A stretch of DNA of 29,705 bases from a virus, in the IMG/VR virus record IMGVR_UViG_3300042505_001866, positions 1 through 29,705 of that record; one strand, given 5' to 3'. The number at the start of each line of letters is the position of its first letter. Positions within the stretch are counted from its first letter, which is position 1. This document shows, in pieces, positions 1 to 19,197 of the stretch. The position numbers and the translations under genes are program-made. A model generated the notes under the pieces. That model worked only from the letters and a program-made list of their open reading frames with translations. It made no database searches and was not told where the DNA came from.

Positions 1-986
1 GCCTGCCTGAGCGGTTCTTCCGTGACCACGACCTGATCGTGGGGCAGGCCCGCACGCGCACGGACATCCAGTGGGCCGGCTACAACCCGTCGACCGTCGA
101 GACGGCCGTTGAGCTGATCGCGGCCTTTCAGGGCACGTTCCAGTACAACGCCAACTTCTTCCGCGACGGCTTCATGCCGGACTTCGCCCTGCTCATCAAG
201 GGCAACATGGCGCCGGAGGACATGCAGCGGTTCATGCAGCAGCTGCAGGACGCCGCGCAAGGCGTGCAGCGCGCGCACCAGCCCTTGGTGCTGCCCGTGC
301 CCGACGGCGGGAGCGGCATCGACAAGGTCGACCTGAAGAAGACCAACGCGGAGATGGGCTTCGAGACCTGGCTGTCCTGCTTGGTGGCGCTGACCTGCGC
401 GGTCTACCGCGAGGACCCGAGCTCCATCAACGCGAAGCCCTGGGCTGGCGGCGCCGGCGCGTCGCTGAGCGAGGCGAACCGCGCGCAGGAGATCGAGCTC
501 GCGCGCGCCGATGGCCTGCAGTCGCTGCTCGGGCACCTGACCGACCACCTGCTGACGCCGATGGCGCGCCGGATGCACCCCGACCTAGTCGTGCGGTGGC
601 ACTTTGGCGAGATGGACCCTGAGCGCGACGCGAAGGTCTACCAGATCCGCACGCAGGTGGACCTGACGCCGAACGAGGCCCGGGTCTTGCGCGGCATGGC
701 GCCCTTCCCGCCGTACTGGCCGGCCAAGGACCTGGGCACGCTGACCCCGGCGCAGCGCGCCGCGTTCGACGCGAACCCCATGAACCAGCTGCAGACCCCG
801 CAGTTCATGGCGGCCATGCAGGCGCGGCAGCAGCCGACGCCGACCGATGACGGCTTCGGCGAGCCGCCGCCCGAGCCTGTAGCGCCCGCCGCGCCCGCCG
901 CGCCGCCCCCGACTTCCGCGCGCCCCCCGGCGCCGACCCCCCTGGCCAAGGCCTCGCGGTTTGCGTGGCCGCTGGAGCACCCATGA
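1..986 (+). CDS. Phage portal protein, 3'-terminal part (start lies before the window)
   Basis: The reading frame is open from the left edge (codons begin at base 3) to the TGA at 984-986, so the gene is cut by the window. A GTG at 39 is only an internal codon. Portal proteins form the dodecameric ring through which DNA enters the head and onto which the tail is joined. Seen here: a GYNPST segment followed by an AAFQGTFQYNANFF stretch, a DFALLIKGN segment and an acidic-aromatic EMGFETWLSCL segment followed by ICA/TCAVYREDP-type residues; this order is typical of HK97/SPP1-like portals. The last ~55 residues are rich in proline and alanine and probably disordered. The terminase genes would be expected just upstream, outside the window. 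I am fairly sure of portal, less of the subfamily. Confidence 0.75.
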   Translation, partial: LPERFFRDHDLIVGQARTRTDIQWAGYNPSTVETAVELIAAFQGTFQYNANFFRDGFMPDFALLIKGNMAPEDMQRFMQQLQDAAQGVQRAHQPLVLPVPDGGSGIDKVDLKKTNAEMGFETWLSCLVALTCAVYREDPSSINAKPWAGGAGASLSEANRAQEIELARADGLQSLLGHLTDHLLTPMARRMHPDLVVRWHFGEMDPERDAKVYQIRTQVDLTPNEARVLRGMAPFPPYWPAKDLGTLTPAQRAAFDANPMNQLQTPQFMAAMQARQQPTPTDDGFGEPPPEPVAPAAPAAPPPTSARPPAPTPLAKASRFAWPLEHP

Positions 987-3441: not shown

Positions 3442-3665
3442 TGGCCTTCAGCGCTGGATTCGAATGGAGTATTGCTCCGCCGCCCGAGGGGCTCGTCTCT
3501 GTGGTTGTGCGCATGACCCTGGCCGAGGCCAACGCCGCCGCGGGTCTGCTCGGGCCTGCGGCCCAGGCGGCGGCCAAGGTCACCGCTGGCGAGGCCCTGG
3601 CGTCTGCCATGGAGGCCGCCGTCGCGGCCGGTGACTACCCGGCGCCCGGGGCTGACGGCCCATGA
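3441..3665 (+). CDS. Small hypothetical protein (74 aa)
   Basis: The ATG at 3441 shares one base with the preceding TGA (3439-3441); a TTG at 3438 is the less likely start. The 74-residue product starts MAFSAGFEWSIAPPPEG and then becomes an alanine-rich, probably helical segment, ending in PAPGADGP. It is overlapped by the next gene through ATGA at 3662-3665. No family recognised. Its coupling suggests it is co-translated with the fibre-like gene and the morphogenesis gene; it might be a small virion protein. Confidence 0.5.
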   Translation: MAFSAGFEWSIAPPPEGLVSVVVRMTLAEANAAAGLLGPAAQAAAKVTAGEALASAMEAAVAAGDYPAPGADGP

Positions 3666-4900
3666 CCTGCCACGACCACACCCACGACGCCCCGCTCGCG
3701 CTGGCGGCCCGCGTGGTCGACGTCCTCGACGGCGTCGACCCCTGTGGGCTGCCCGACGTCTTCGCGGCGGTGGGTGATGGCCTTCACCTCGACGGTGCCG
3801 TGCTCGCGCTGGCTGTGCGCCCGCGCCCGTCGGCCTTCGATCCGCGCTTCCCGGAGCTCAAGACGCTGCTCAAGCTCGCGCGCCGGGCCTGGGAGCAGTA
3901 CGGCGCCGCGCTCATCGAGGAGGTCCGCAAGCTCGTCGACCGCGGTCGCCTGTTCCCCTTCCACGCTGAAGAGCTGGCCGAGCTGGACCGCCTGTTCGCC
4001 GCGCACGCCGTGTCGCTGCGCCTACGGCTGTTCGGCGCGCCGCCGACCCCAGCCGAGCTCGAGTCCGCGCGCGCCGCCGGCGCCGTCGAGGGCGACCCGG
4101 GCGCGGCCGCCGAGCGCAGCGCCGTCACGCTCGCCTACCGGGCCGGCAAGCGGTGGGAGACCATCGCCGCCGCCGCGGCTGAGCAGGGCGAGCTGGTGCC
4201 GCCCCCGATGCCCGGCGATGAGCAGCCCGCCGAGCCCCGGCTCGACCGCGTCATCCGCGAGCTCGTCGAGGTGCCGCTGACCGCGCGCGACCGGCGGGCC
4301 CTGGACTACATCCGCCAGCGCGGAGCGATCTACATGCGGCGGCCCATCGCCACCGCGACCGGCGCGCTGCTGGGCGAGGTCTCCGACGCCTCGGGCGACA
4401 TGCGGCGGCTCTTCCCCTCCGAGGAGAAGAAGATCCGCGACGCCGTCGAGGCCCAGGTCAAGGCCGGCGAGGGCTGGCGCACGCTGGGGCCGCGCCTGCA
4501 TGACGCTCTCGAGGGCAGCCCGACGCTGATCAACGACGTCGACCGCATCGCCCGCACCGAGCTGTCCTTCGCGCACGCGCACGGCGCGCACGTCGCGCTC
4601 AGAGAGCGCCTCGACGCGAGCGGCCTGGACCCCGAGCAGCAGCAGGTCTTCAAGCTGACGCAGCCCACGGCGTGCTCTGACTGCCTGCGCATCTGGGGCC
4701 CGCACACGGCGCCCAAGCTCTACGCGCTGTCCGAGGTCGAGGCGTCATCCTTTGCCGGCGGCAACTTCGGCAAGCCCCGCGCGCAGTGGGGCCCGACCAT
4801 CGGCCCGACGCACCCCAACTGCACGGAGGGCCCGTTGCAGCTCTACCGCCCCGAGATCGCGGCGGCGGTGAGCAGCACGCTGGCCCGCCTGCGCCGATAG
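3662..4900 (+). CDS. Head morphogenesis protein, Mu gpF / SPP1 gp7-like
   Basis: A 412-residue protein overlapping the previous gene by ATGA. The C-terminal part has the features of the Mu gpF/SPP1 gp7 minor head family: an ARTELSFAHAHG segment with R298-T299-E300, then a likely zinc site made by C338 and C341 (ACSDC) and H384 and C387 (THPNC). A helical region lies at residues ~60-130. These proteins are incorporated in a few copies in the procapsid next to the portal and are often ejected with the DNA. Length is within the family range. The portal gene lies about 2.7 kb upstream with the fibre genes between, a somewhat separated arrangement. No toxin domain is evident behind the morphogenesis domain. 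Confidence 0.75.
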   Translation: MTCHDHTHDAPLALAARVVDVLDGVDPCGLPDVFAAVGDGLHLDGAVLALAVRPRPSAFDPRFPELKTLLKLARRAWEQYGAALIEEVRKLVDRGRLFPFHAEELAELDRLFAAHAVSLRLRLFGAPPTPAELESARAAGAVEGDPGAAAERSAVTLAYRAGKRWETIAAAAAEQGELVPPPMPGDEQPAEPRLDRVIRELVEVPLTARDRRALDYIRQRGAIYMRRPIATATGALLGEVSDASGDMRRLFPSEEKKIRDAVEAQVKAGEGWRTLGPRLHDALEGSPTLINDVDRIARTELSFAHAHGAHVALRERLDASGLDPEQQQVFKLTQPTACSDCLRIWGPHTAPKLYALSEVEASSFAGGNFGKPRAQWGPTIGPTHPNCTEGPLQLYRPEIAAAVSSTLARLRR

Positions 4901-6995: not shown

Positions 6996-8990
6996 ATGCC
7001 GGTCCCGCTGTTGCCGCCCGTCACCCCGAACCGTGACGAGCACCCCTTCGTGGGCATGGTGCTCTGGCGCGGGCTCGCGCTGGACATCGAGACCGCCGAG
7101 GGCGAGACCCGCCGCGGGTCCGGCTGGGAAGTCGTGATGCCGGCGCACTACGGCGAGGTGCGCGGGACCGTCAGCGCTCTCGACGGCGACCCTGTCGACG
7201 TCTTCGTGGGGCCGGCGCTCGACGCGCCGATGGCGTTCGTGGTGCACCAGAAGCACCCCGGCACGGCCGCCATCGACGAGGACAAGGTGATGATCGGCTT
7301 CGCCTCCGCAGAGGAGGCCGAGACAGCCTACCGCCGCGCCTACACCGCCGGGGGGTTCTTCCACGGCATGACCCGCTGGCCTGCTGACGAGCTGGCGGGC
7401 CTGCTGCGCGCCGGCGGCACCGTGCCGCGCCTGGACCGCCCCCAAGCCGTGCGCGACCGGCTGGCCCTGGCCGTCAACGAGCAGCGGCAGGTCATCGTGA
7501 CCACGGACAAGGGCCCGCGCCCGGCCAAGGTCATCGCCTCGGGTGCGATGGGCCTGACGGTGCAGGTCGACGGCGAGACGCTCAAGGTGGCGCACGGCGC
7601 CTACACCTTCCTGGGCGACGAGCTCGGGCAAGAGGACGACACCTCGACGCAGGAGCCTGCGACCTGGGATGAGGACCTCGACTTCTCCGACACCGACTGG
7701 AAGCCGCCCACCAACTGGCGCGAGCTGACCGATTCCGAGAGGATCGACTTCGCTGCGTGGCGCGACATCGAGAGCGAGATCGGGGCGCGCTACCCGGCCA
7801 ACTTCTCGAGCTCCACCGACGCAGGCAGCGCGCTGGCGCAGGCGCAAGCCTACCTGCGGCAGGCCGTCACCGACGGGTGGATGGACCGCGCCAACGTGGG
7901 CCACGCCATCGCCACCGTGCGAGAGGTCGCGCGCCTGCTCGCGGCGCCCCGCGGTGAGCTGCCGCGCCGCGACCGCGAGGTCATGCGGCGCGTGCTCGCC
8001 GACACTGCGGCCAAGGTGCTGCACCTAGAGGTCGAAGCCTGCCGCCGCGCCGAGCCTGACCGCGGCGCCCGGCACATCCACGTCGGCCTGATGCACCTGC
8101 TCAACATCCTCGACGCGCTGGACGTCGAGCCCGCGTTCAAGACGGCCGCCGCGCTGGCCTGGGTCAACCATGACCTCGGCTACACCCTGCCGATGGTCCG
8201 GGCCGGCGCCATCGACGACGCGCTGCACCCGGCGCTGAGCGCGCGCCTCTTCGCACAGTGGGCGGCCGGCTCCTGGGCCATGCGCGACGCGCTGCTGCCG
8301 CTGGACCCGTCGCTGGTTGCCAGCTGGATCGCCGGGCACGCCTCGACGCAGATCGACGCCAACGACCGGGTCGGCTCTGCGTTCCGCATCGAGGGCGCCA
8401 CGCACCTGTGGGCCACCAAGGCGCTCGAAGACCTCGTGGCCCGACCCGCCGGCGCGCAGGCCGTCGCCCGCATGTGGGGCGCGCGGGGCCCGCTGGCGGG
8501 GCCGCTGCGGGGGCGCATGGTGGCGCCCATCGACCGCGCGGCGTCCGAGCTGGGTCACACGCCCCAGGCGCTGGGTGTGCAGGCGTGGGCTGCGGCGCAG
8601 ATCGACGGCTACATCGAACCCCAGCCCGGCGGCCTGCAGGGTCACCTCATCGGCCTGGACTTCAACCCGGGCACCTCGACGCTCACCCTGCGCGTGGGCC
8701 CGTGCCAGACACGCGAGGCGCTCGACCGCGTGTTCGGCGCTGACGAGCCCACCAAGCAGGCGCGCCGAGTGTTCGGCGCCGCGGCGCGCGTGGGCGAGGA
8801 CATGGCTGTCCCGGGCCCGCTGACGCTGGCAGTCGTCTGGACCGGCGACACCTACGACCGGTCGCCTGTGCAGCTCGAGTTCGAGCGCGCCCTGGAACGT
8901 GCGGGCGAGCAGTGGAGCGGCATCGAGGCCATCCAGGACGAGGCCGTGCGCGACATGGCCGCCTTCGGTTACGCCGACATGGGGGGATGA
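6996..8990 (+). CDS. Inorganic-pyrophosphatase-like domain fused to an HD phosphohydrolase-like domain (664 aa)
   Basis: The ATG at 6996 follows GAGGAAG at 6982-6988. Residues ~15-135 contain GDPVDVFVGP and DEDKVMIGF, the pattern of the pyrophosphatase-like domain found in phage and plasmid polyvalent proteins. A small beta-rich segment follows (~155-205). Residues ~355-470 carry an HD-superfamily signature: H360/H362, H392-D393 in VNHDLGYT, H411, H448 in WIAGHA, and D454/D457. HD enzymes hydrolyse phosphate esters of nucleotides and, in some families, cyclic nucleotides. No helicase or polymerase domain is seen. As it sits in a head-gene region and has polyvalent features it may be carried in the particle and injected, possibly acting on host nucleotides or immune signals; substrate is unknown. 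Confidence 0.6.
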   Translation: MPVPLLPPVTPNRDEHPFVGMVLWRGLALDIETAEGETRRGSGWEVVMPAHYGEVRGTVSALDGDPVDVFVGPALDAPMAFVVHQKHPGTAAIDEDKVMIGFASAEEAETAYRRAYTAGGFFHGMTRWPADELAGLLRAGGTVPRLDRPQAVRDRLALAVNEQRQVIVTTDKGPRPAKVIASGAMGLTVQVDGETLKVAHGAYTFLGDELGQEDDTSTQEPATWDEDLDFSDTDWKPPTNWRELTDSERIDFAAWRDIESEIGARYPANFSSSTDAGSALAQAQAYLRQAVTDGWMDRANVGHAIATVREVARLLAAPRGELPRRDREVMRRVLADTAAKVLHLEVEACRRAEPDRGARHIHVGLMHLLNILDALDVEPAFKTAAALAWVNHDLGYTLPMVRAGAIDDALHPALSARLFAQWAAGSWAMRDALLPLDPSLVASWIAGHASTQIDANDRVGSAFRIEGATHLWATKALEDLVARPAGAQAVARMWGARGPLAGPLRGRMVAPIDRAASELGHTPQALGVQAWAAAQIDGYIEPQPGGLQGHLIGLDFNPGTSTLTLRVGPCQTREALDRVFGADEPTKQARRVFGAAARVGEDMAVPGPLTLAVVWTGDTYDRSPVQLEFERALERAGEQWSGIEAIQDEAVRDMAAFGYADMGG

Positions 8991-9634
8991 TGCAGCAGCA
9001 GCGCCGCTTGCGGTTCCTGGTGAAGGCCGACGCGCTGACCGGCGAGGCCGCCGCGCCGGCCGTGCCGCAGTCGATGGGTGCCGCCGCGGCGCTTCCGGCG
9101 CCGACCGCGGGGCGCGCCCGGCTGCTGTTGCCCGTGCCGCCCGCGCCAGGCACGCCTGTGCGGGGCCACATCCGCCGGACCGCCGACGGGGCCCGCACGG
9201 TGCGCCCGCACGGCCGCAAGCCCGCAGAGCGCCGCCTGCCGCCGCCGCCGGCCGCCGGCACAGGTGAGCCCGCCGGCGAGCAGCTCGCGCTCACAGCGCG
9301 CCCAGACGGCGCCGAGGTGCCCCTGCGGGGCCCCGTGGCCCAGGCGCTCCCCTTCGCTCGTCAGGCCGCGCCGCAGCGCGTCTGGCGCCCTGGTGACGCC
9401 CAGGCCCAGCTCGACGAGGCCTGGGCGCTGATGGAGCCCGACATGCGGCGGGGCGTGATGCCCCCGCCCGCGTTCTGTCGGCGCTGGTTCGAGGCCGCAG
9501 AGCAGCTCGAGGCTGAGCAGCTTGATGCCGCCCTGGCTGGCGACGACGGGGCCGAAGACCGGTGGCACGACACGGCCGACCGTCAGCAGGCGATGATAGA
9601 GGCCTTGGCCGCCTGCGCTCCGCGGGCGCGCTGA
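8987..9634 (+). CDS. Proline/alanine-rich basic phage protein (215 aa)
   Basis: The ATG at 8987 overlaps the previous stop (8988-8990); a second in-frame ATG follows at 8990. The N-terminal two thirds is rich in P, A and R. It contains VRGHIRR followed after a short gap by RTVRPHGRK, similar to short V-x-G-x-x-R...V-x-P-H-x-R motifs seen on other phage head-region proteins. The last ~75 residues are helical and charged, ending in CAPRAR. No enzymatic motif is visible. It overlaps no downstream gene (8 bases to the next start). Role unknown; an injected or capsid-bound DNA-binding protein would fit the basic composition. Confidence 0.5.
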   Translation: MMQQQRRLRFLVKADALTGEAAAPAVPQSMGAAAALPAPTAGRARLLLPVPPAPGTPVRGHIRRTADGARTVRPHGRKPAERRLPPPPAAGTGEPAGEQLALTARPDGAEVPLRGPVAQALPFARQAAPQRVWRPGDAQAQLDEAWALMEPDMRRGVMPPPAFCRRWFEAAEQLEAEQLDAALAGDDGAEDRWHDTADRQQAMIEALAACAPRAR

Positions 9635-9642
9635 GGAGCGCC

Positions 9643-10902
9643 ATGCGTCTGCACCTGCTGCCCCGCGCGACGCCCGGCGACGGCCTCGAAGCGCTGGCAG
9701 AGGAGCCCTGGCGCCGCGCCGACGATGCCCGCTGGGTTGCGCACCGCCACGGCTACGACTGGGAGCTGCGCGTCGCCAATGACCTCGACGTGGTCATCGA
9801 CGGCGCCGAGCCGCAGATCGAGCTGCGGCGCGACGGGGTGAGCCAAGGGCGGTTCACCCTGCAGAGCGCGGTCGACGTCGTGAACGGCTACCGCGCCACC
9901 GTGCGCGAGCTGCCCGTGGGCGGCCTCAACGAGCGCTTCGGCGAGGTCGCCAACCTGCGCGAGGGCATGCGCGGCTTCGTCCCGCTGCGTCCGGTCGACG
10001 TCAAGGCCTTCGCCATGGCGACCCGCATGCTGGCAGCGGCCTTCGCCGTGATGGTGGAGCCGGAGGCCAAGTGGGCCTGGGACCGGGCGATGAACCCGCC
10101 GCTCGAAGACGAGGACAACGACTGGGACGACGAGTGGACGCTGGGCGAGCTGCTTGACGTGCCGCTGGTCAGCCCCGACGGCGAGCCCTTCACCGAGGCG
10201 GACCTCGAAGCCCTGCCCATCTTCGTGATGACCCTGGCCATGCACGTCTGGGGCCGCGGCAACCCCGAGCAGGAGTTCGGCGTGGGCGGCGCCGGGCGCG
10301 GCGGCAAGCAGCTGCAGGCGGGCTTCATGATGCCCGAGTGGGCGTCGCTGGCCATCCTGGCCGACCGCCTGCTCAGCAACGCTGAGCTGCGGATCGTGCC
10401 TGTCGACAAGCAGACCGCCTTCGACTTCGTGAAGCGGCACCACAGCGCGCTCCCCGACGCGAACCCCCGGGGCTTGCTGTTCGCGCTGGGCGTGGCCCGC
10501 GGGGCCCGCTTGGTGGGTGTGGCGCTCTGCAACACCCCCTCGGGTCGGTACGCGGACCCGCACGGCGTCGTCGAGCTGACCCGGGTGGCGACCGACGGCA
10601 CGGTGAAGGGCGCGGCCAGCAAGCTGGTGGCCCGGGTGCTCGACACCTGGCGCATGGCGGCCCGCGGCGCGCCGTCCAAGCTCGTGACCTACAGCCTGAC
10701 CAGCGAAGAGGGCGCGACCTACAAGGCCCTGAAGGACAAGGGCCTGCGGCCGGTGGCGCGCGTCGAGGGGCGCGACCCAGCAGGCGCCCGCGGCGGCGTG
10801 TCGGGAGACCCGTCGCTGGCGCGCATCTCGAAGGTGCGGTGGGAGGCCGGCCCCGGCGCCGGGGCGGCGGACTGGTCCTTGGTTGCTCCCTCCCGGGACT
10901 GA
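9643..10902 (+). CDS. Protein with C-terminal GNAT acetyltransferase-like (XF1762-type) domain (419 aa)
   Basis: Start at ATG 9643 with TGAGGAG at 9632-9638; the longer opening from 9562 overlaps the previous gene. Residues ~1-240 are an acidic, unrecognised region (with a DEDNDWDDEW patch). Residues ~253-385 match the phage XF1762-like GNAT pattern: AFDFVKRHH, LFALGVARG, LVGVAL, VVELTRVATDG, an acetyl-CoA-loop-like AASKLVARV, then KLVTYSLTSEEG. GNAT enzymes transfer acyl groups from acyl-CoA; the substrate here is unknown. XF1762-like proteins are frequent in phage accessory regions. It is the last gene before the csf cluster, with 16 bases between them, and could belong to the same accessory cassette or to the head-cargo group upstream. 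Confidence 0.6.
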   Translation: MRLHLLPRATPGDGLEALAEEPWRRADDARWVAHRHGYDWELRVANDLDVVIDGAEPQIELRRDGVSQGRFTLQSAVDVVNGYRATVRELPVGGLNERFGEVANLREGMRGFVPLRPVDVKAFAMATRMLAAAFAVMVEPEAKWAWDRAMNPPLEDEDNDWDDEWTLGELLDVPLVSPDGEPFTEADLEALPIFVMTLAMHVWGRGNPEQEFGVGGAGRGGKQLQAGFMMPEWASLAILADRLLSNAELRIVPVDKQTAFDFVKRHHSALPDANPRGLLFALGVARGARLVGVALCNTPSGRYADPHGVVELTRVATDGTVKGAASKLVARVLDTWRMAARGAPSKLVTYSLTSEEGATYKALKDKGLRPVARVEGRDPAGARGGVSGDPSLARISKVRWEAGPGAGAADWSLVAPSRD

Positions 10903-10918
10903 GATTAGCACCACGGGC

Positions 10919-12112
10919 ATGACGCCCGACCATCCCCGCTCCGGCGCCGCTCTGCTCTGGCAGACGGCCGGCCGCCCCGACGCTGAGCAAGCACAGCCCG
11001 TGCCGCCCGGCACGGGCTGTTGGTGGTGCGGCACGCCGATCCCCGACCGCGGGCGGCCGACGTCGACGCTGCCGGACAGCTTCCACGCGACGATCCCGCG
11101 CGGGCCGGCGGACCTGAGCAGCGACTTCCTGTGCCACGCCTGCGGGTGGTCGCTGTCCGACTGGGTGGCGCTCCCGCGCGCGGTGTGGGGGCCCCAACTC
11201 GCCGCCGCCCTCGACGGCGATGGCAAGGTGTCGCTGAGCCTGGGCGGCGACCGCGGCGCGAAGGCCTCCATCTGCCGGGGGCCCGGGTCGACCGTCTACG
11301 TCTTCGCGCGGCCGCCGCAGGGCAAGCGCGGCGCGCCGCTCGAGGCGGCATGGATGGCTGGGCGCGGCGCAGCGGCGACCGGCGACCTGTCCGCCATGCC
11401 GCCCGAGCTTGCGCTCCTGGCCACGCTCGATGAGGCCGAGGTCGGCGCGGCCATGGTGGGCAAGTTCCGCAACTACGATCACCTCGCCGTCAATGGCGAG
11501 TGGCACGCGCTCAAGGTGCAGCGGCCGGCTGATCGCGACCGGGTGCGTGCGCTGCTGCTCGCCCCGCCCCCGGGCCTGTGGGCCCTGTCGCTGGGCGATG
11601 GCCAGAAGCACTGCGCCTTCATGGCGCCGCTCAGCGATGGCCGCCTGGAGCTGCAGAGCGTCTACTGCGACGGCGCCGGCGTCGTCTGCTACGCGCCCCG
11701 GGACCTGGCGGGCCTGCTCGAGGCCGTCGGCGCGCTCATCGTGGCCGGCGCGCACCCCGATGAGGTTCGCAGCGGCCGCTACCGCCCGCGTGGCGACGTC
11801 ACCCTGATGCTGGCGCGGGCGCGCTGGGATGCAGCCGTGGCCGTGTGGCGCGGCTCTGCGCTCTACGAGCTCGCCGAAACCGTGCGGCCCTCGACGGATG
11901 CACTCCGCGAGGCGGCCGCAGCCCAGGCGCCCCAGGCGGCGCCACAGACCCCCATGCCGGCGCCCGCGCCGGTGGAGAGCCCCGATGATCGAACTGCCGA
12001 CCCCGGCCCTGGAGTACCTGGCCCTGCTGCCGGAACCGGAGCGGGCGCGCCTGCTGCTGCGCGGCCTCGTGCCGACCGGCCTGCTCAACGACAGCTCGGC
12101 CTTTTCGGCTGA
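10919..12112 (+). CDS. csf1: Csf1-like large subunit of a type IV-B CRISPR-Cas effector (397 aa)
   Basis: Start taken at ATG 10919; a TTG at 10883 would overlap the previous gene. Near the N-terminus is a four-cysteine zinc-finger-like pair, C34/C37 in CWWCG and C72/C75 in CHACGW, typical of Csf1, the reduced Cas8-like protein of type IV systems. The central region has alternating strands (FRNYDHLAVNGEWHAL, LWALSLGDGQKHCAF). The last ~60 residues are P/A-rich and end in QLGLFG. Csf1 sits at the crRNA 5' end of type IV complexes and takes the large-subunit role. It is followed by cas11, csf2 and csf3 in the known order, which is the strongest support. The C-terminal 128 bases overlap cas11. 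A strong hairpin lies inside the first 35 codons. Confidence 0.75.
   Translation: MTPDHPRSGAALLWQTAGRPDAEQAQPVPPGTGCWWCGTPIPDRGRPTSTLPDSFHATIPRGPADLSSDFLCHACGWSLSDWVALPRAVWGPQLAAALDGDGKVSLSLGGDRGAKASICRGPGSTVYVFARPPQGKRGAPLEAAWMAGRGAAATGDLSAMPPELALLATLDEAEVGAAMVGKFRNYDHLAVNGEWHALKVQRPADRDRVRALLLAPPPGLWALSLGDGQKHCAFMAPLSDGRLELQSVYCDGAGVVCYAPRDLAGLLEAVGALIVAGAHPDEVRSGRYRPRGDVTLMLARARWDAAVAVWRGSALYELAETVRPSTDALREAAAAQAPQAAPQTPMPAPAPVESPDDRTADPGPGVPGPAAGTGAGAPAAARPRADRPAQRQLGLFG
10993..11020 (+). repeat. Perfect inverted repeat (13-base arms, 2-base centre) inside the 5' end of csf1
   Basis: The arms are ACAGCCCGTGCCG and CGGCACGGGCTGT, separated by CC. In RNA this would give a 12-bp stem with a GCCC tetraloop. 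It lies in codons ~25-34 of csf1, just before the first CxxC. No T-run follows, so a classic intrinsic terminator is not shown, though the stem resembles one. A GTG codon of the csf1 frame (11000) lies within the stem. Confidence 0.85.
11974..11979 (+). promoter_or_regulatory. Shine-Dalgarno site of cas11 located within csf1
   Basis: GGAGAG followed by five bases and the ATG at 11985. It sits inside the csf1 reading frame and decides the cas11 start, showing that cas11 initiates while csf1 is still being translated in another frame. Confidence 0.6.
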
Positions 12113-12500
12113 GGTGGTCGCCCCGGCCTACTTCGGCGTGCTCGCGTGGCGCGCCGGCTACGTCAAGGGCAACCTCAAGACGCTCAAGGGCTACGAGGCC
12201 CAGGAGCGGCTGGGCCACCGCATGCGCGCGGCGCGCGGGCGCAGCTCGGGGCTTGAGGGCTGGGGCCTCGCCCTGCTGCGGGGCGTCGGCTGCCGCGGCG
12301 ACGCGCTGAGCGGGCCCGCGGTGCTCTGGTGGCGCGAGGCGTGCGGCACGGCCGCGGCCGGCGCCGAGCTGGGCATCGACGCGTGGTCGACCCTCCGCGA
12401 CCCCAACGGCATGGAGCAGGTCATCCAGGCGGCGGGCCTGCTGATCGACTGGCTGCGGCAGGTCAAGCGGTTCACCAAGGAAGAGGAGAACGAGGCATGA
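11985..12500 (+). CDS. cas11: Cas11-like small subunit of the type IV-B effector (171 aa)
   Basis: The ATG at 11985 has GGAGAG at 11974-11979. The product is almost wholly helical by appearance: LALLPEPERARLLLRGL, then SAEVVAPAYFGVLAWRAGYVKGNL, and a C-terminal helix QAAGLLIDWLRQVKRFTKEEE. Small, helical and placed between csf1 and csf2, it fits the Cas11 small subunit that forms the belly of type IV-B complexes and contacts the displaced or target strand in related type I complexes. It overlaps csf1 by 128 bases in a different frame and csf2 by ATGA. Sequence alone is weak evidence for Cas11 because the family is very divergent; the assignment rests on size, helix content and gene order. Confidence 0.7.
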   Translation: MIELPTPALEYLALLPEPERARLLLRGLVPTGLLNDSSAFSAEVVAPAYFGVLAWRAGYVKGNLKTLKGYEAQERLGHRMRAARGRSSGLEGWGLALLRGVGCRGDALSGPAVLWWREACGTAAAGAELGIDAWSTLRDPNGMEQVIQAAGLLIDWLRQVKRFTKEEENEA

Positions 12501-13510
12501 GTCGGCACAGTTACACTTTCGTCCTGGAGATCACGCCGACGTCGGCGCTCACCCACGGCGCCGGCAACAACGGCAACGAGCAGGAGCTCCACCGGCGCAC
12601 CTACAACGTCTGCCGCGACGGCCGTTGGGTGCAGGAGAGCATCGCGTGCGTCTCCGGCGCGGCCATGAAGGCCACCATGCGCGAGCACGCGGGCCTGCTG
12701 TTCCTGCAGCTGGCCGGCATCGGTGAGCTCGGGCGCGACGGCCTGCGCCTCGTGTTCAAGGGCGGCCGCATGGAGGGCAGCGAGCGGGCCGCGGCCATCG
12801 ACGAGGCGCGGCGCCTGCGGGACCTGTTCCCGGTGCTGTCCGTCTTCGGCGCCATGGACGGCGCCATGATCATGCGCGGCCGCCTGCAGGTTTCGCCGGT
12901 GGTGCCGTACACGGACCTCACCCGCGAGGCTGGGTTGGTGGACCTGGCCGGTGCCGAGGTCTTCCCCGGCATGGCGCCGCTGCCGCACCACATGATCGAG
13001 AGCCCGGAGCCGATCACCTACTACCGGCACGACCTGAAGAGCTCGCACGCCGCGGCGCTGCTGCCCGCGGCCGAGCGCAAGGCCATCGAGGACCTCGCCG
13101 TCGCGCGCAAGGGCAAGGCGGCCACCAAGGACGAGCGGCGCGAGGCCAACGAGAGCATGCCGCACGCGTTCCAGGCCATCGCGCCCGGCACGCCGATGGT
13201 GTGCACCCTGCGGTTGTCCGACGCCAACGAGATCGAGGCCGCCTGCCTGATGCTCGCGCTCACGCGCTGGATCGGCGCGGGCGGCTACCTTGGTGGCGCG
13301 TCGTCGAAGGGGCACGGCCAGTGCAAGGTGCGGATCGCCGAGGCGCGCCGGGTGGTCAGCGTCGGCGGCCCCGTGCCGGTGGCGGTCGGAGACCACGCCG
13401 CGCTGGTCAGCGTCGAGGGCGTCAACCCGGGCGCCGAGGAGCTCGCGCTCCGCTACGCCGAGCACGTCCGCGCCAACGCCGAGGCCATCCGCGCCGAGCT
13501 CCTGTCGTGA
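12497..13510 (+). CDS. csf2: Csf2 (Cas7-family backbone subunit of the type IV-B effector; 337 aa)
   Basis: The ATG at 12497 overlaps the cas11 stop. The protein has the RAMP-type Cas7 plan: an N-terminal strand FVLEITPTSALTHG, a SGAAMKATMREHA segment matching the RAMP 'GxxLKGxxR' motif (~residues 53-65), MRGRLQVSPVVPY, and a glycine-rich segment GGYLGGASSKGHGQCKV (~260-280) near the C-terminus. Length is normal for Csf2. Cas7 subunits polymerise along guide RNA to form the backbone of the complex. A charged insert (residues ~180-220, KGKAATKDERRE) could form the thumb. It couples to csf3 through a GTGA overlap. No type III-like catalytic residue is evident to me. Confidence 0.85.
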   Translation: MSRHSYTFVLEITPTSALTHGAGNNGNEQELHRRTYNVCRDGRWVQESIACVSGAAMKATMREHAGLLFLQLAGIGELGRDGLRLVFKGGRMEGSERAAAIDEARRLRDLFPVLSVFGAMDGAMIMRGRLQVSPVVPYTDLTREAGLVDLAGAEVFPGMAPLPHHMIESPEPITYYRHDLKSSHAAALLPAAERKAIEDLAVARKGKAATKDERREANESMPHAFQAIAPGTPMVCTLRLSDANEIEAACLMLALTRWIGAGGYLGGASSKGHGQCKVRIAEARRVVSVGGPVPVAVGDHAALVSVEGVNPGAEELALRYAEHVRANAEAIRAELLS

Positions 13511-14169
13511 GGCCCCTGCAGGTCACGGCCGTGCTTGCCCAGCCGGCCGTGCTCAAGGTGCCCCCGGTGCTTGACGGGTTGCTGCTGGCCGGCGTGGCGC
13601 AGCTTGCATGCCGCGACCTGCCGGGCGGCATCATGCCGCTCGAGGAGGCCGACGTGCTGCCCCTGCCGTTGGCTCGCGTGGAGACCCCCGTGGGCTGGTG
13701 GTGGGCAGCGTCGCAGGCCACGCTGTGGGGGCGCGAGGCCGTGTCATGGGCCCACCGCCGCCACGCGGGCAACCTCGCCGAGCTGTTGGACGGGGTGAGG
13801 ACCATCGACACCGGCGCCGGGCCCGACAAAAGCCTGCGCGTGCCGCTCTACGCGCGGGTCGAGATGATGCAGGTCACCTGGACGTGCATCGGTGACCCCG
13901 ATGCTGTTGCGGCGGCGCTCAGCTACATCGACGGCATCGGCGCGCGGCGCACGCACGGCTGGGGCTGGGTGCGGCAGTGGATGGTCGACGACGACCCGAA
14001 GCAGCTGCAGCTCGAGGACTACGCGACCCGCCCGGACCTGCGGCACATCCCCGTCGACGCGCTCGACTCGCTGCCCAAGGGCCGCGTGCGCCTGAGCCAG
14101 GTGCCGCTGCGGCCGCCCTACCACCACATCGGCGCTGCGGTGCCATGCTGGCAGCAGGTGTCCGCGTGA
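13507..14169 (+). CDS. csf3: Csf3 (Cas5-family subunit of the type IV-B effector; 220 aa)
   Basis: Start at GTG 13507, forming a GTGA overlap with the csf2 stop; no suitable ATG lies nearby. The N-terminus (RPLQVTAVLAQPAVLK then VLDGLLLAGVAQ) has the pattern of Csf3 and related Cas5 RAMPs. Residues ~141-157 carry IDGIGARRTHGWGWV, the glycine-rich RAMP loop. Csf3 caps the 5' handle of the guide in type IV complexes. Length is normal. The gene overlaps the next RAMP-like gene by GTGA in the same manner, so the whole set is translationally coupled. Confidence 0.8.
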   Translation: MRPLQVTAVLAQPAVLKVPPVLDGLLLAGVAQLACRDLPGGIMPLEEADVLPLPLARVETPVGWWWAASQATLWGREAVSWAHRRHAGNLAELLDGVRTIDTGAGPDKSLRVPLYARVEMMQVTWTCIGDPDAVAAALSYIDGIGARRTHGWGWVRQWMVDDDPKQLQLEDYATRPDLRHIPVDALDSLPKGRVRLSQVPLRPPYHHIGAAVPCWQQVSA

Positions 14170-14924
14170 GCCCCGACCTGCCGCCGCTCGGGGCGGAGGT
14201 CGAGGGCGCGCCGTGGGCGCGGCGCGTGTCCTGGGCGCTGGCGCGGCTCGACTGCGCTTGGGGCTCGACCCCTGCGCGCATCCTGCGGGGCGCGGTGGTG
14301 CAGCAGGTCGAGGACCTGTGCGGCGCGTCGGTGTCCTGGCACAACCACGGCGACGACGCGCAGACCTCGGCGCGACCGGCCGAGGTGCACTACCGCGTGC
14401 GCGAAGGGCGGGCCGAGCTGTTCTTCATCGGGCCGCGGGCCGCCGCCAACGCGGCGCTGCTCGGGCGCGTGCGCGCGCTGCGGCTGCCGGCCGGCGAGGT
14501 CATTCCGGTCGACGGCGTTGACCTCGAGGTGGGCGCCACCGACGCGCAGTGGCTGGGGAAGTCCTGGCGCCGCTACCGGCTGGTGACGCCGATCTTCCCG
14601 TCGTCGGTGGTCGACGCCCGCCGGCCGCGCTCGGCCGATGGCGCGGGCCTGCTCTACGCCTGGGCGGGGCACTACCTCGTGTCGTCGCTGGTGACCTGGA
14701 TGTCCGAGGTGGGCGTCCGAGGCGGGTCCATCTCGCCGCACGTCGTGATCGAGCCGGGCACCCTGCGCGCGGGCGAGGTCAACTTCACGCGGCCGGCGCG
14801 GGGCCAGGGCGCGCGGGCGCAGGGGTTCATGTGCGACTTCATCACCAACGCCGTGCTGCCGTCCGGGGCAGCGCTGGGGGCCCATCGCAGCGAGGGGTGG
14901 GGCGTGGTCCATGCTCAGTCGTGA
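14166..14924 (+). CDS. Cas6/Csf5-like RAMP protein in the type IV-B locus (252 aa)
   Basis: GTG at 14166 overlaps the csf3 stop (GTGA), the same junction as csf2/csf3; the ATG at 14145 is an alternative adding 7 residues. Two ferredoxin-like halves can be read: residues ~20-125 (strand-helix-strand with RILRGAVVQQVEDLCG) and ~135-250, starting YRLVTPIFPSS and ending in a glycine-rich LPSGAALGAHRSEGWGVV (231-248). This order and the final loop are those of Cas6 endonucleases that cut CRISPR transcripts. H59 or H61 (SWHNHGDD) and H240 are candidate catalytic histidines. Type IV-B systems usually have no Cas6, so this is unexpected; a second Cas5-like paralogue is the main alternative. No close family member is recalled. 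Confidence 0.55.
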   Translation: MSPDLPPLGAEVEGAPWARRVSWALARLDCAWGSTPARILRGAVVQQVEDLCGASVSWHNHGDDAQTSARPAEVHYRVREGRAELFFIGPRAAANAALLGRVRALRLPAGEVIPVDGVDLEVGATDAQWLGKSWRRYRLVTPIFPSSVVDARRPRSADGAGLLYAWAGHYLVSSLVTWMSEVGVRGGSISPHVVIEPGTLRAGEVNFTRPARGQGARAQGFMCDFITNAVLPSGAALGAHRSEGWGVVHAQS

Positions 14925-15726
14925 GGCGCTGGCCCCGTGGTGGGACGGCCCGATGCCCGACCGCGACGACTGGGCGGCGCGCTACCCAGCCCGGCAGGTC
15001 ATGCTGCACACCAGGTCGCAGGCCTTCCGCCGGCGGCTCGACGCCGCCAAGGCGACGGTGGACCGCGCGCTGGGCACCACGCCGAGCTGGCAGGCCAGCG
15101 TGTCGTGCGGCAAGGACAGCACGGCCCTGACGCTCGTGTTGTCCGAGGTCTGCGGCGCGGTGATGCCGGTCCCGCTGCTGTCGCTGCGCGATGAGCTGTG
15201 CTGGCAGGGCGAGGAGCTCTACCTGCGCACGCTGGCCCTCCGCGTCGGCGCGGTGCTCGAGCTGCCGCGGGTCGACCTGGACCTGTCGAGGTCGCTGGAC
15301 GCCTCGACCGACGATCAGCGCAAGGGCGCCCTGTCGGGCCCGTGGTTCGACGTCGCGACCAGGTCCCGCGGCGGTCGGTCCCTGTTCTGGGGCCTGCGCG
15401 CCGACGAGAGCAAGGTGCGGCGGGCGCTGCTGTGGGGCCGCAGCGACCTGTACCAGATCACCGACGGTTCGTGGCGGTGCGCGCCGCTGATGCTCTGGTC
15501 GGCGCTCGACGTGCACGCCATGCTGTGGCGCCACGACGTGCCCCTGCACCCGGTCTATGGGTGCATCGACCCGGGCGCCGACCCGATGAAGCAGCGGCAC
15601 AGCTGGTTCGTCGTGGGCCTCGACACCTACATGGCCGCCGTGCACTACGCCTGGCTGCAGCGATGGTGGCCCGACTACTACCACCGGGCGGCCGTTCTCT
15701 GGCCGGACCTGCGCTCGATCTGCTGA
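14911..15726 (+). CDS. cysH-like: CysH-like PP-loop protein (PAPS reductase family) of the type IV-B locus (271 aa)
   Basis: ATG at 14911, overlapping the preceding gene by 14 bases. Residues 65-70 are SCGKDS, a PP-loop that binds ATP or an adenylyl nucleotide, and 161-167 are GLRADES followed by KVRR, the second hallmark of the family. Genuine sulfate-assimilating CysH ends in an ECGLH motif with the catalytic cysteine; none is seen, so sulfite production is unlikely. A cysH-like gene of this type is a known companion of type IV-B csf operons, with unknown role. The C-terminal half is W/Y/H-rich (HSWFVVGLDTYM...). It supports the IV-B assignment of the locus. It might modify a nucleotide, RNA or protein; that is speculation. 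Confidence 0.8.
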   Translation: MLSREALAPWWDGPMPDRDDWAARYPARQVMLHTRSQAFRRRLDAAKATVDRALGTTPSWQASVSCGKDSTALTLVLSEVCGAVMPVPLLSLRDELCWQGEELYLRTLALRVGAVLELPRVDLDLSRSLDASTDDQRKGALSGPWFDVATRSRGGRSLFWGLRADESKVRRALLWGRSDLYQITDGSWRCAPLMLWSALDVHAMLWRHDVPLHPVYGCIDPGADPMKQRHSWFVVGLDTYMAAVHYAWLQRWWPDYYHRAAVLWPDLRSIC

Positions 15727-15754
15727 GGCGGGATAGGCCGCGCCGCGGAGCCTG

Positions 15755-16018
15755 ATGCAGACCGACCCGCTCAAGCTGCGGTGCCCCCGGTGCGGCGCCC
15801 CCATCTCCGGCGTGCGCGCTGGCCAGCTCACCCTGGCGAGCGCCATGCTGCGCGTCGAGGACGACGGCTCCTTGTCCCTGCGGTGCCCCGGCGCGCGCTG
15901 CTCCGAGGTCATCCCGGCGCCCTTCCTGGCCCTGACGCTGCCTGAGCCGCCTCCGGCGCCGCCACAACGACGTGTGCGCCTTGCGGTCCGGGTTGACGCG
16001 CTCCGCCAGCCGGTGTAG
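15755..16018 (+). CDS. Small zinc-ribbon protein (87 aa)
   Basis: ATG 15755 has GGAG at 15747-15750. The first CxxC (CPRCGAP) is followed ~30 residues later by CPGARC, giving four cysteines that could bind zinc in a Com-like ribbon. The C-terminal ~25 residues are P/R-rich and may be disordered. The gene stands 28 bases after the cysH-like stop. Such ribbons occur as small phage regulators or nucleic-acid binders; no specific role is shown here. It could be the last gene of the accessory cassette. Confidence 0.6.
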   Translation: MQTDPLKLRCPRCGAPISGVRAGQLTLASAMLRVEDDGSLSLRCPGARCSEVIPAPFLALTLPEPPPAPPQRRVRLAVRVDALRQPV

Positions 16019-16021
16019 CCT
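15993..16021 (+). promoter_or_regulatory. Possible sigma70-type promoter ahead of the capsid genes
   Basis: TTGACG, 17 bases, TAGCCT. The -35 matches 5 of 6 consensus bases and the -10 fits TANNNT. It overlaps the end of the zinc-ribbon gene and precedes the protease-scaffold-capsid genes by ~90 bases, the largest gap in the window. Found by eye in GC-rich DNA, so chance is possible. Confidence 0.3.
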
Positions 16022-16108
16022 CGGGGCAGCAGCCGCCCATCAGGGCAACGGCCCACCGCCTCCGTCACCTCGACGGTTCGGCGCGTGGGCCTTCTGCGTC
16101 TGGGGACC

Positions 16109-16876
16109 ATGCAGAACGCCGTGCTCATGGACCTGCGCAAGTCCCGGTGGACGCCGACGCGTCCGCTTGGGGGCTGGCTGGCCACGTCGCACGAGCTGCT
16201 CCCCGACGGCTCCATGGTGCCGGTCGTGGACCGCGCGCAGCAGGTCTTCACCGCCGCGGCGTCTTCGGCGACCTGCAACGCGGACCCCTACACTGGTTGG
16301 GGCCTGTGGAATCACGAGCACCAGCCGGTCTTCGTCGGTGTGCCGACCTACCTCGAGTTCTGCGGGCCCAAGCACCCGCTGGCCATCGAGCACGGCAAGG
16401 TCGGCCTGTGGACCGAGGGGCACCTGTTCGATCCCGCCGACCCGCGGTCGTGGGAGGACTTCGCCCCCGGCCGGCCGGCGTCGATCTGGGGTGCGATCCC
16501 CAAGCCCGAGGGGCGCTTGGTGCCGACCGCGGCCGAGCTGGCCCAGGCCGACACCTACTGGCGCGTGGCCACCGCCCTGGAACCCACCGGGCGGGGCATC
16601 GGCTTCTCGGCGCACGGCGTGACGGCCGTGGTTGGTCGCGAGCTGCCGCGGGCCGTGCTGACGCAGGCGGCGGTCTGCATGACGCCGATGAACCCGCACG
16701 CCATGGCGCAGCCGCTAGCGCTGTCCGCCGGCGTCCACATGCACACGCCGCTGACCGCCAGCGACCGCGCCGACTCGAGGCGGCGGGCCGAGGTGGTCCG
16801 GCTGCTGTGCGCAACCAAGGGGTACTCCCCGCAGATGGCCGAGGCTGTTGTGGCGCTCGGCTGGAGCCAAGCATGA
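16109..16876 (+). CDS. Prohead protease, S78 (HK97 gp4)-like (255 aa)
   Basis: ATG 16109 preceded by GGGGA (16102-16106); the GTG at 16085 is a longer alternative. The reading pattern is that of S78 prohead proteases: H69/H71 in WNHEHQP near the first strand, a VGLWTEGHLF strand, S167 in GIGFSAHG as the probable nucleophile, and a later MTPMNPHA segment that corresponds to the common EVSVTPxPxNP region. These enzymes cleave the scaffold and capsid delta domain during maturation. The gene precedes the scaffold and capsid genes, the usual order. The catalytic residues are assigned by pattern only. Confidence 0.65.
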   Translation: MQNAVLMDLRKSRWTPTRPLGGWLATSHELLPDGSMVPVVDRAQQVFTAAASSATCNADPYTGWGLWNHEHQPVFVGVPTYLEFCGPKHPLAIEHGKVGLWTEGHLFDPADPRSWEDFAPGRPASIWGAIPKPEGRLVPTAAELAQADTYWRVATALEPTGRGIGFSAHGVTAVVGRELPRAVLTQAAVCMTPMNPHAMAQPLALSAGVHMHTPLTASDRADSRRRAEVVRLLCATKGYSPQMAEAVVALGWSQA

Positions 16877-17631
16877 CCACCACGCCAGCCGAGATTGCCG
16901 CGAAGGGGGAGAGCCACATGGGCGACCTCCTGCGCGGCGTGAGCGACGGGCTCGCCGAGATCGTGAACCTGCTCAAGGGCAAGGCCCCCGAAGCCGCTGA
17001 GGCCGCGGAGAGCGAGGCCGAGGAGGACGCCGAGAACGAGGAGGCCAAGGACGACGACAAGCCGGCCGAGGCCGAGGGCGACGGCAAGGGCGCCGGGTAC
17101 GATGACCTCGAGAAGGCGATCATCAACCTCGACCCCGAGGGCAACGCCTACATCGACGCCACCAAGCTCGTGACCGACATGGCCAAGAGCCAGGCCGACA
17201 CCGCGGCCACGCTGGCTGAGGTCAAGGCACTCCTGTCGAGCATGAGCGCCGAGCTGGTCGGCACCCGCGAGGACCTCGCCAAGGCGCAGGTCGAGATCGC
17301 AGCCCTGACCGCAAGCGGTGAGGCCACCCGCCTCGCGCTGGCCTGCATGACCGAGAAGGTCCTGAGCCCGATGGCCAAGGCGGTCATCGACCGCGACGCG
17401 GGCCAGCCCGCCGGTGTGGCGGCCAACCCCGCTGGCGCCGAGGCCCGCATGGGCGTCTCTGCCGGCGTCGCTGCGGCGCCGGCCTTCACGACTGAGCAGC
17501 TCGAGAAGGCGGTGTCTGAGGGGCGGATCACCGTCGACCAGCACGTTGCCTACGCCACCATCGGCGTGTTCAGCCGCAACAAGGCCGAGCACATCGCCGC
17601 GCTCGCCAGCCTGTCCACCCCCAAGGCCTGA
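16873..17631 (+). CDS. Capsid scaffolding protein (252 aa)
   Basis: Start at ATG 16873, overlapping the protease stop (ATGA) with GGAG upstream. Residues ~38-75 are very acidic (E/D/A), ~95-150 form a heptad-like coiled coil (TLAEVKALLSSMSAELVG), and the C-terminal ~60 residues could be the capsid-contacting part. This order and its place between protease and major capsid are typical of tailed-phage scaffolds. An in-frame ATG at 16918 has a strong Shine-Dalgarno (16903-16913) and may give a second, shorter form. Confidence 0.7.
   Translation: MTTTPAEIAAKGESHMGDLLRGVSDGLAEIVNLLKGKAPEAAEAAESEAEEDAENEEAKDDDKPAEAEGDGKGAGYDDLEKAIINLDPEGNAYIDATKLVTDMAKSQADTAATLAEVKALLSSMSAELVGTREDLAKAQVEIAALTASGEATRLALACMTEKVLSPMAKAVIDRDAGQPAGVAANPAGAEARMGVSAGVAAAPAFTTEQLEKAVSEGRITVDQHVAYATIGVFSRNKAEHIAALASLSTPKA
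16903..16913 (+). promoter_or_regulatory. Strong internal ribosome binding site in the scaffold gene
   Basis: AAGGGGGAGAG, four bases before the in-frame ATG at 16918. It is stronger than the GGAG before 16873 and makes the true scaffold start uncertain by 15 codons, or permits two forms. Confidence 0.5.
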
Positions 17632-17640
17632 GGAGGCCCC

Positions 17641-19197
17641 ATGTCGATCCCTTTCAGCCACGCCGGCCTGCTCGCCCGCCTCGAGCTCGCGTTCTCCGAC
17701 GCGAACGTCAACCTCGCCAAGTCGGTGACCTCGGACGGCATCGCCGTCGCGGTCCCGCAGAGCCTTGAGGACGTCGCCCACAACACCCTGTGGGACCAGA
17801 ACAGCCCCAACGAGCTGACCCTGCTCAAGTCGCTGCCGAGCACCAAGGCGACCAAGGTCATCCACGAGACCGCGCGGATCACCAGCTACGGCCTCGGCAA
17901 GGGCAGCGGCTTCTTCGCCGAGAGCGGCCTGCCCAGCGTCAACACGCCGACGCTGGACAAGCTCAGCACCTACCTGAAGCTCCAGGGCATCGAGGTCGAC
18001 ACCACGATGCTGGCCGAGCTCCAGCAGACCGTCAGCGTCATGGGCACCAACAGCCCGGCCGCGGCGCACGCGGTGATGGCGCTGAACGTGATGCTGCGCC
18101 AGAAGCAGCGCAACATCGTCTACAGCGACGACAGCAAGGTCCGCGGCGGCACCGCCAGCCTGCGCATCAAGGGCATCATTCAGCAGATCCGCGAGGGCAC
18201 CGACGGCACCTACGGCGTCGGCGTGGACGGCGTCTCGCACGTCATCGACATGCGCGGCCTGCCGCTGAACCTGCTGAACATCCGCAACGCGGTCGCCGGC
18301 GGTATCCGCAAGTTCGGCAGCATCAACAGCCTGTACATGGACGCCTCCGTGCGGCAGGACTTCGAGTCCAGCCTCGACGGCGCGGCCCGGCTCGAGATCC
18401 CCACTGGCAGCGCGCCCATCAAGATGGGCCAGCTCGTCGCGGGCGTGCAGACCAACGGCCAGATGGTGCGGTTCCTGACCGACAACACCCTCTCGCCCGA
18501 CTGGTGCCGGCCGTTCTACAGCGACACCCTCGAGATCGGCGCGCCCACCAGCCTGGGCCCGGCCAGCGGCAGCGTGGCGACCACCACCGACGCCAACAGC
18601 CGCTTCGACAGCAACCCCGTGGGCGCCGGCGACTACTTCTGGGTGGTCACCGAGGTCATCGGCGAGCGCGAGGGCGCCGGCCGCCGCATCCCGGGCTCCG
18701 GCTACACCACCGTGGCCGTCGGCTACAAGGCCACCCTGTCGCTGACCCCGAGCGCCAGCAACGTGGAGAGCTTCCGCATCTACCGCGGGTCGGCCACCAC
18801 CGGCTCCGGCGGCGGCCTGACCACCGACGCGCAGCTGATCGATGAGGTCGCGGTGCCGTCGGGCGCCTCGGTGTCCTACGTCGACCGCAACTACAACCGC
18901 AACGGCCTCGGCACCGCGCTGGGTCTGCGCCTGATCAGCCCGGCGATGACCGCGCTGGCCTCGCCCAACGTGGCCGACTACGAGGCCGCCTGGCAGCGCC
19001 GCGCGAGCTTCACCAACATGGCCGACGGCCCGCAGAACACGGTCACCGCCGTGCACCTCGGCCCGCAGTCCATGGTGATGGACCTCGCCAAGCTGGGCTT
19101 CACCGCCCAGCGGCAGCTCGTCGCGAGCGTGTACGGCGTGCTGGTGCGCAACCCGCTCCAGAACTACGTCTTCACCAACGTCGGCCGGCGGTCCTGA
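17641..19197 (+). CDS. Major capsid protein with inserted Ig/FN3-like domain (518 aa)
   Basis: ATG 17641 follows AGGAGG (17631-17636), the best ribosome site in the window, as expected for the most abundant protein. The N-terminal ~300 residues include NLAKSVTSDGIAVAVPQSLE, HETARITSYGLGKGSGFFAESG and VMALNVMLRQKQRNIVYSDD, in keeping with large HK97-fold capsid proteins of myoviruses. Residues ~302-425 form an inserted Ig/FN3-like domain: GDYFWVVTEVIGEREG, SLTPSASNVESFRIYRG, and VSYVDRNYNRNG. Related capsids carry such surface domains. The C-terminal ~90 residues return to the capsid fold. Position after protease and scaffold supports the call. Confidence 0.85.
   Translation: MSIPFSHAGLLARLELAFSDANVNLAKSVTSDGIAVAVPQSLEDVAHNTLWDQNSPNELTLLKSLPSTKATKVIHETARITSYGLGKGSGFFAESGLPSVNTPTLDKLSTYLKLQGIEVDTTMLAELQQTVSVMGTNSPAAAHAVMALNVMLRQKQRNIVYSDDSKVRGGTASLRIKGIIQQIREGTDGTYGVGVDGVSHVIDMRGLPLNLLNIRNAVAGGIRKFGSINSLYMDASVRQDFESSLDGAARLEIPTGSAPIKMGQLVAGVQTNGQMVRFLTDNTLSPDWCRPFYSDTLEIGAPTSLGPASGSVATTTDANSRFDSNPVGAGDYFWVVTEVIGEREGAGRRIPGSGYTTVAVGYKATLSLTPSASNVESFRIYRGSATTGSGGGLTTDAQLIDEVAVPSGASVSYVDRNYNRNGLGTALGLRLISPAMTALASPNVADYEAAWQRRASFTNMADGPQNTVTAVHLGPQSMVMDLAKLGFTAQRQLVASVYGVLVRNPLQNYVFTNVGRRS

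Follow-up and report, generated by a model that had tools for sequence, protein, structure and literature searches.

The analyzed stretch of DNA (hereafter, the window) comprises 29,705 bases of an IMG/VR virus record. Its central feature is a single open reading frame (ORF) whose product we refer to as the fusion protein (Table 1). The gene starts 3 nt past the stop codon of the preceding gene, and its 3′ end shares an ATGA overlap with the start of the following gene. An earlier account made from the DNA letters alone (hereafter, the sequence-only reading) had described this frame and quoted the words GDPVDVFVGP and DEDKVMIGF, which we located at aa 64–73 and 94–102, respectively, in agreement with that account. 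This ORF is a real, conserved gene. It was also correctly placed among head genes: a portal fragment, a weak head-morphogenesis match, and a major head protein gene lie nearby.

Table 1. Features of the window and of the sibling phage discussed in the text
Feature	Position	Strand	Basis or remark
Portal protein, C-terminal part, cut by window edge	39–986	+	phrog_2662, E 9e-15; PF04860, E 8.5e-8
Head-morphogenesis protein	3662–4900		Weak match
Upstream neighbor, 434 aa	5688–6992	+	phrog_62, E 5e-12, profile positions 12–63 of 1881
Fusion gene, InPase plus candidate HD-like part, 664 aa	6996–8990	+	Single ORF
InPase domain, aa 20–133, with DGDPVD (aa 63–68) and DEDK (aa 94–97)	7053–7394	+	PF18823
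Linker and possible small beta domain, aa 141–235	7416–7700	+	46% identity in relative; no credible Pfam match
Candidate HD-like core, aa 355–481 (H362, H392-D393, H411, H448, H470)	8058–8438	+	Conservation, five-block test
C-terminal alpha/beta segment of unassigned kind, aa 546–664	8631–8987	+	54% identity in relative
XF1762-family (Mom/GNAT-like) C-terminal part	9643–10902	+	NCBIfam, E 9e-20; 59% identity in sibling phage
Type IV CRISPR effector module	10919–15726	+	Within head-gene block
csf1/Cas8	10919–12112	+	
Cas11-size ORF	11985–12500	+	
csf2/Cas7	12497–13510	+	E 4e-41
csf3/Cas5	13507–14169	+	E 7e-31
Cas6-like protein	14145–14924	+	
CysH-like protein	14911–15726	+	
Major head protein	17641–19197	+	phrog_752, E 3e-25
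Sibling phage, HD_4 (RelA/SpoT-hydrolase-like), small separate protein	L094:9592–10074		E 6e-12
Sibling phage, ThyX	L094:5436–6284		
Sibling phage, NrdB	L097:3148–4140		

Analysis of the N-terminal half revealed that aa 20–133 match the Pfam family InPase (PF18823) with an E-value of 8.9e-29 (100.5 bits vs a cut-off of 26.8); PF00719 was also matched, weakly. In an alignment of 67 proteins, 10 residues proved invariant (G26, E32, R39, G53, D63, D68, G72, D94, E95, and K97), and the fusion protein retains all 10. With this family match and every invariant residue intact, the pyrophosphatase-like N-terminal part proposed by the sequence-only reading is firmly confirmed at the sequence level as the phage InPase, i.e., the type I-pyrophosphatase-like module of polyvalent proteins. 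Iyer et al. (2017) described the InPase family of polyvalent proteins and noted that the phage InPase lacks a beta hairpin that cellular PPases have between strands 1 and 2 (PMC5512222). They suggested that polyvalent proteins act in conflicts, that those carrying InPase are packaged and then injected, and that the InPase targets are PPi or nucleotides made upon infection (PMC5512222). No InPase substrate is reported in the literature we searched; judging from its family and residues, the InPase of the fusion protein, for which the family predicts a type I pyrophosphatase fold, is very probably catalytically active as a PPi-type phosphohydrolase and probably hydrolyzes PPi or a nucleotide phosphoanhydride.

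Next, we explored where InPase occurs in other phages. A total of 454 INPHARED phage records matched the fusion protein, and among the matches listed, coverage was confined to the N-terminal part (within about aa 2–139), with the matching proteins often annotated as portal or minor head proteins. A domain scan of the 67 InPase proteins revealed Phage_portal_3 in seven and, in fewer proteins, other portal families or Mu-F-like, XkdF-type head protease, DarA_N, LPD, and ART domains. In Pseudomonas phage Pa193, the portal gp19 (structure 9b41) matches InPase at aa 631–734, and portal residues 529–765 show no density in the virion structure (PMC11042391); the position of the InPase stretch inside this density-free region would fit a flexibly tethered module. 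The InPase of Pa193 gp19 and that of the BcepF1 minor head/portal protein are about 39–46% identical to ours and likewise reside in virion proteins, whereas in the fusion protein the InPase is N-terminal and off the portal, which is encoded by a separate gene (39–986). Based on the head operon, the virion-linked relatives, and the published proposal, the fusion protein probably travels in the virion and is injected. None of the other InPase proteins sampled (67 scanned) showed the HD-like C-terminal part, and 49 other InPase-bearing records were likewise without it.

Scanning viral contigs with an eight-sequence InPase alignment uncovered one full-length relative (52% identity over 661 aa), encoded by IMGVR_UViG_3300037493_006316 (86 kb; contig piece L009; hereafter, the sibling phage). 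In further scans, the C-terminal part was matched in this contig only (n = 1 orthologue), and one such scan returned an extra contig matching the InPase part alone. When viral contigs were scanned with one sequence at a time (the complete fusion protein, its C-terminal half, or the capsid protein), nothing was returned, and a tblastn search of the C-terminal half against phages and plasmids was likewise negative. Bacterial genome contigs searched with the C-terminal and InPase alignments yielded no relative, a result obtained with narrow search patterns that does not imply absence.

Across the compared block, synteny between the two phages holds gene for gene. Along the fusion protein, identity to the relative was 79% in the InPase, 46% in aa 142–235, 37% in aa 236–354, 62% in aa 355–481, 30% in aa 482–545, and 54% in aa 546–664; aa 355–481 are thus the best-conserved part of the C-terminal region, and the final segment (aa 546–664) has no Pfam match. 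Every His between aa 343 and 470 is kept in the relative. The upstream neighbor shares 36% identity with its syntenic counterpart in the sibling phage, which makes it the second most divergent gene in the compared block. It carries a 52-aa motif (RWITAHPNG...GGKLNG) that is also present near the N terminus of a large family of phage helicases (PHROGs), and this motif may be a module that recurs in polyvalent or packaged proteins.

The second half had been read as an HD phosphohydrolase from the residues H362, H392-D393, H411, H448, and D454. All of these residues are in place, and the His residues and D393 are conserved in the relative; D454 is replaced by Glu there, and we rejected it as a metal ligand. 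Of the ordered ligand motif H...HD...H...H...D, four of the five elements are conserved, and the canonical last Asp is missing where it would be expected. The family assignment itself fared less well. Neither phage protein matched any HD family in Pfam at E-values up to 10, and a PF01966 search of both whole phage records found no match, while the same profile matched in 14 of 14 control genomes. For profile comparison, we used a reference set of 28 HD proteins, all taken from a single bacterial record: hhalign scored the two-sequence core at 12.6, inside the shuffled range of 11.0 ± 1.9, whereas 26 of the 28 real HD proteins exceeded 33 when left out singly. The best short hhalign alignment nevertheless paired the HD helix in the correct register. 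Comparison with YqeK-type Ap4A hydrolases, for which the query sequence was checked by a 99.5% match, was at chance level. Structure prediction by AlphaFold with one- and two-sequence input gave mean pLDDT values of 39.6 and 37.9, and the fold was not usable; Foldseek returned no match at an E-value of 0.001, and its matches to the first low-confidence model were chance-level helical proteins.

These results leave room for a different reading, namely that the C-terminal region is helical and serves in the virion or in assembly, its conserved His residues binding a structural metal or making contacts, with the InPase as the sole catalytic part. The missing fifth Asp, the long helices predicted in the low-confidence model, and the lack of an HD match by HMM or profile are all consistent with it. 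In addition, shuffling this region produced an H-HD-H-H pattern with like spacing in ~6% of cases, and the motif by itself is therefore weak evidence for an HD domain. Set against this reading, which we consider rather unlikely, are the retention of the H/HD/H/H residues while the flanks diverge and the outcome of an ordered five-block test.

The five-block test employed an ordered, spacing-limited motif chain trained on the 28 HD proteins. The fusion protein scored 7.5, compared with a background best of 7.0 among 78 windows of sibling-phage proteins, and its score was reached in 4 of 150 single-sequence shuffles. The relative alone scored 4.5, which is within background, and the joint score of both phage proteins was reached in 5 of 1,000 column shuffles. 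At the joint optimum, the first four expected ligand positions were filled by H362, H392-D393, H411, and H448, and the fifth was taken by H470, not by D457. Since the chain was designed after the protein had been seen and the two versions of the test are not independent, the support it lends is modest. Taken together with the conservation of the core, it makes a divergent HD-like metal enzyme the somewhat favored identity for the C-terminal part. Likeness to the HD superfamily (PF01966 relatives, YqeK, and HD-GYP) would lie in the ordered H...HD...H(P)...H motif and its spacing, which the block test weakly supports; the fusion protein differs in having no HMM or profile match and in the replacement of the canonical last Asp by H470.

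The explanation that we consider best, at slightly below even confidence, is a head-operon protein of the polyvalent type that is packaged and injected and combines InPase with a divergent HD-like phosphohydrolase. Expressed from the head operon, the protein would travel in the capsid and reach the cell together with the DNA. Its InPase would hydrolyze PPi or a nucleotide phosphoanhydride, using metal ions held by the acidic residues of DGDPVD, and its middle region would act as a divergent, metal-dependent HD-like phosphohydrolase through H362, H392-D393, H411, H448, and probably H470. The HD-like part might cleave a nucleotide, with the InPase removing the released pyrophosphate and so rendering the reaction irreversible.

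The same two activities could instead serve replication, with the InPase clearing PPi and the HD-like part hydrolyzing dNTPs or other nucleotides to adjust pools, with no role against host defense. PPi clearing is among the published suggestions for InPase (PMC5512222), and the sibling phage encodes NrdB, ThyX, and a separate HD_4 protein, which indicates that such phages manage nucleotides and keeps this idea alive. The gene, however, sits in the head block and not beside the helicase and ThyX genes, which favors a virion-linked role; we regard a pool-adjusting function as unlikely. The HD superfamily includes messenger hydrolases, and this can be counted in favor of an injected enzyme that counters defense by destroying messengers of the cyclic oligonucleotide or alarmone type. 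In the same direction point the proposals that polyvalent proteins act in conflicts and that InPase acts on infection-induced nucleotides (PMC5512222). The putative HD part had no HMM or profile match, and the substrate is conjectural; we judge this role improbable. PADLOC returned no match for the fusion protein, a result of little weight because its library covers defense and not counter-defense. More speculative still is a specific version in which the HD-like part acts on a messenger nucleotide or alarmone of the host and the InPase destroys the PPi that is released, so that the head would deliver an irreversible messenger-quenching enzyme before phage gene expression; we consider it quite improbable.

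Neither the InPase family nor the polyvalent class is new. The sequence-only reading placed the pair in no named phage family; the InPase half does belong to one (PF18823; PMC5512222). In the material searched, the pairing of InPase with a putative HD-like part was not found elsewhere and appears to be new. The fusion protein resembles phage polyvalent InPase in sequence family, conserved acidic residues, and head/virion context and differs in its partner, the putative HD-like C-terminal part; the terms “HD domain,” “HD superfamily,” and “phosphohydrolase” are absent from the main text of PMC5512222. Polyvalent proteins are defined by at least two domains that differ in function within a single polypeptide, and here the InPase is certain while the second enzymatic domain is suggested. 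InPase domains occur widely among phage virion proteins, and their fusion here to another candidate nucleotide hydrolase, which would place both predicted activities in one protein, is a concrete hint that the substrates of InPase are released by nucleotide cleavage.

Further along the head-gene block, we observed a type IV CRISPR effector module, preceded by a gene whose product has an XF1762-family C-terminal part (Table 1). The sibling phage carries csf1, csf2, csf3, the Cas6-like gene, and cysH in identical order, and no CRISPR-like repeats were found in 9000–17700 of the window. Type IV-B systems with CysH are known from a few viruses (PMC10848311), and the presence of a Cas6-like gene alongside CysH seems unusual. 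That the fusion protein is an accessory of this adjacent module is very improbable: the two lie on the same strand in an order kept in both phages, but two other genes separate them, and InPase relatives occur beside portal and capsid genes with no such module in view. Finally, the predicted genes at the two ends of the 86 kb sibling contig (L093 1–158 and L097 5928–6218) encode proteins with shared sequence close to the start, an indication that the contig ends overlap and that the map is complete and circular.
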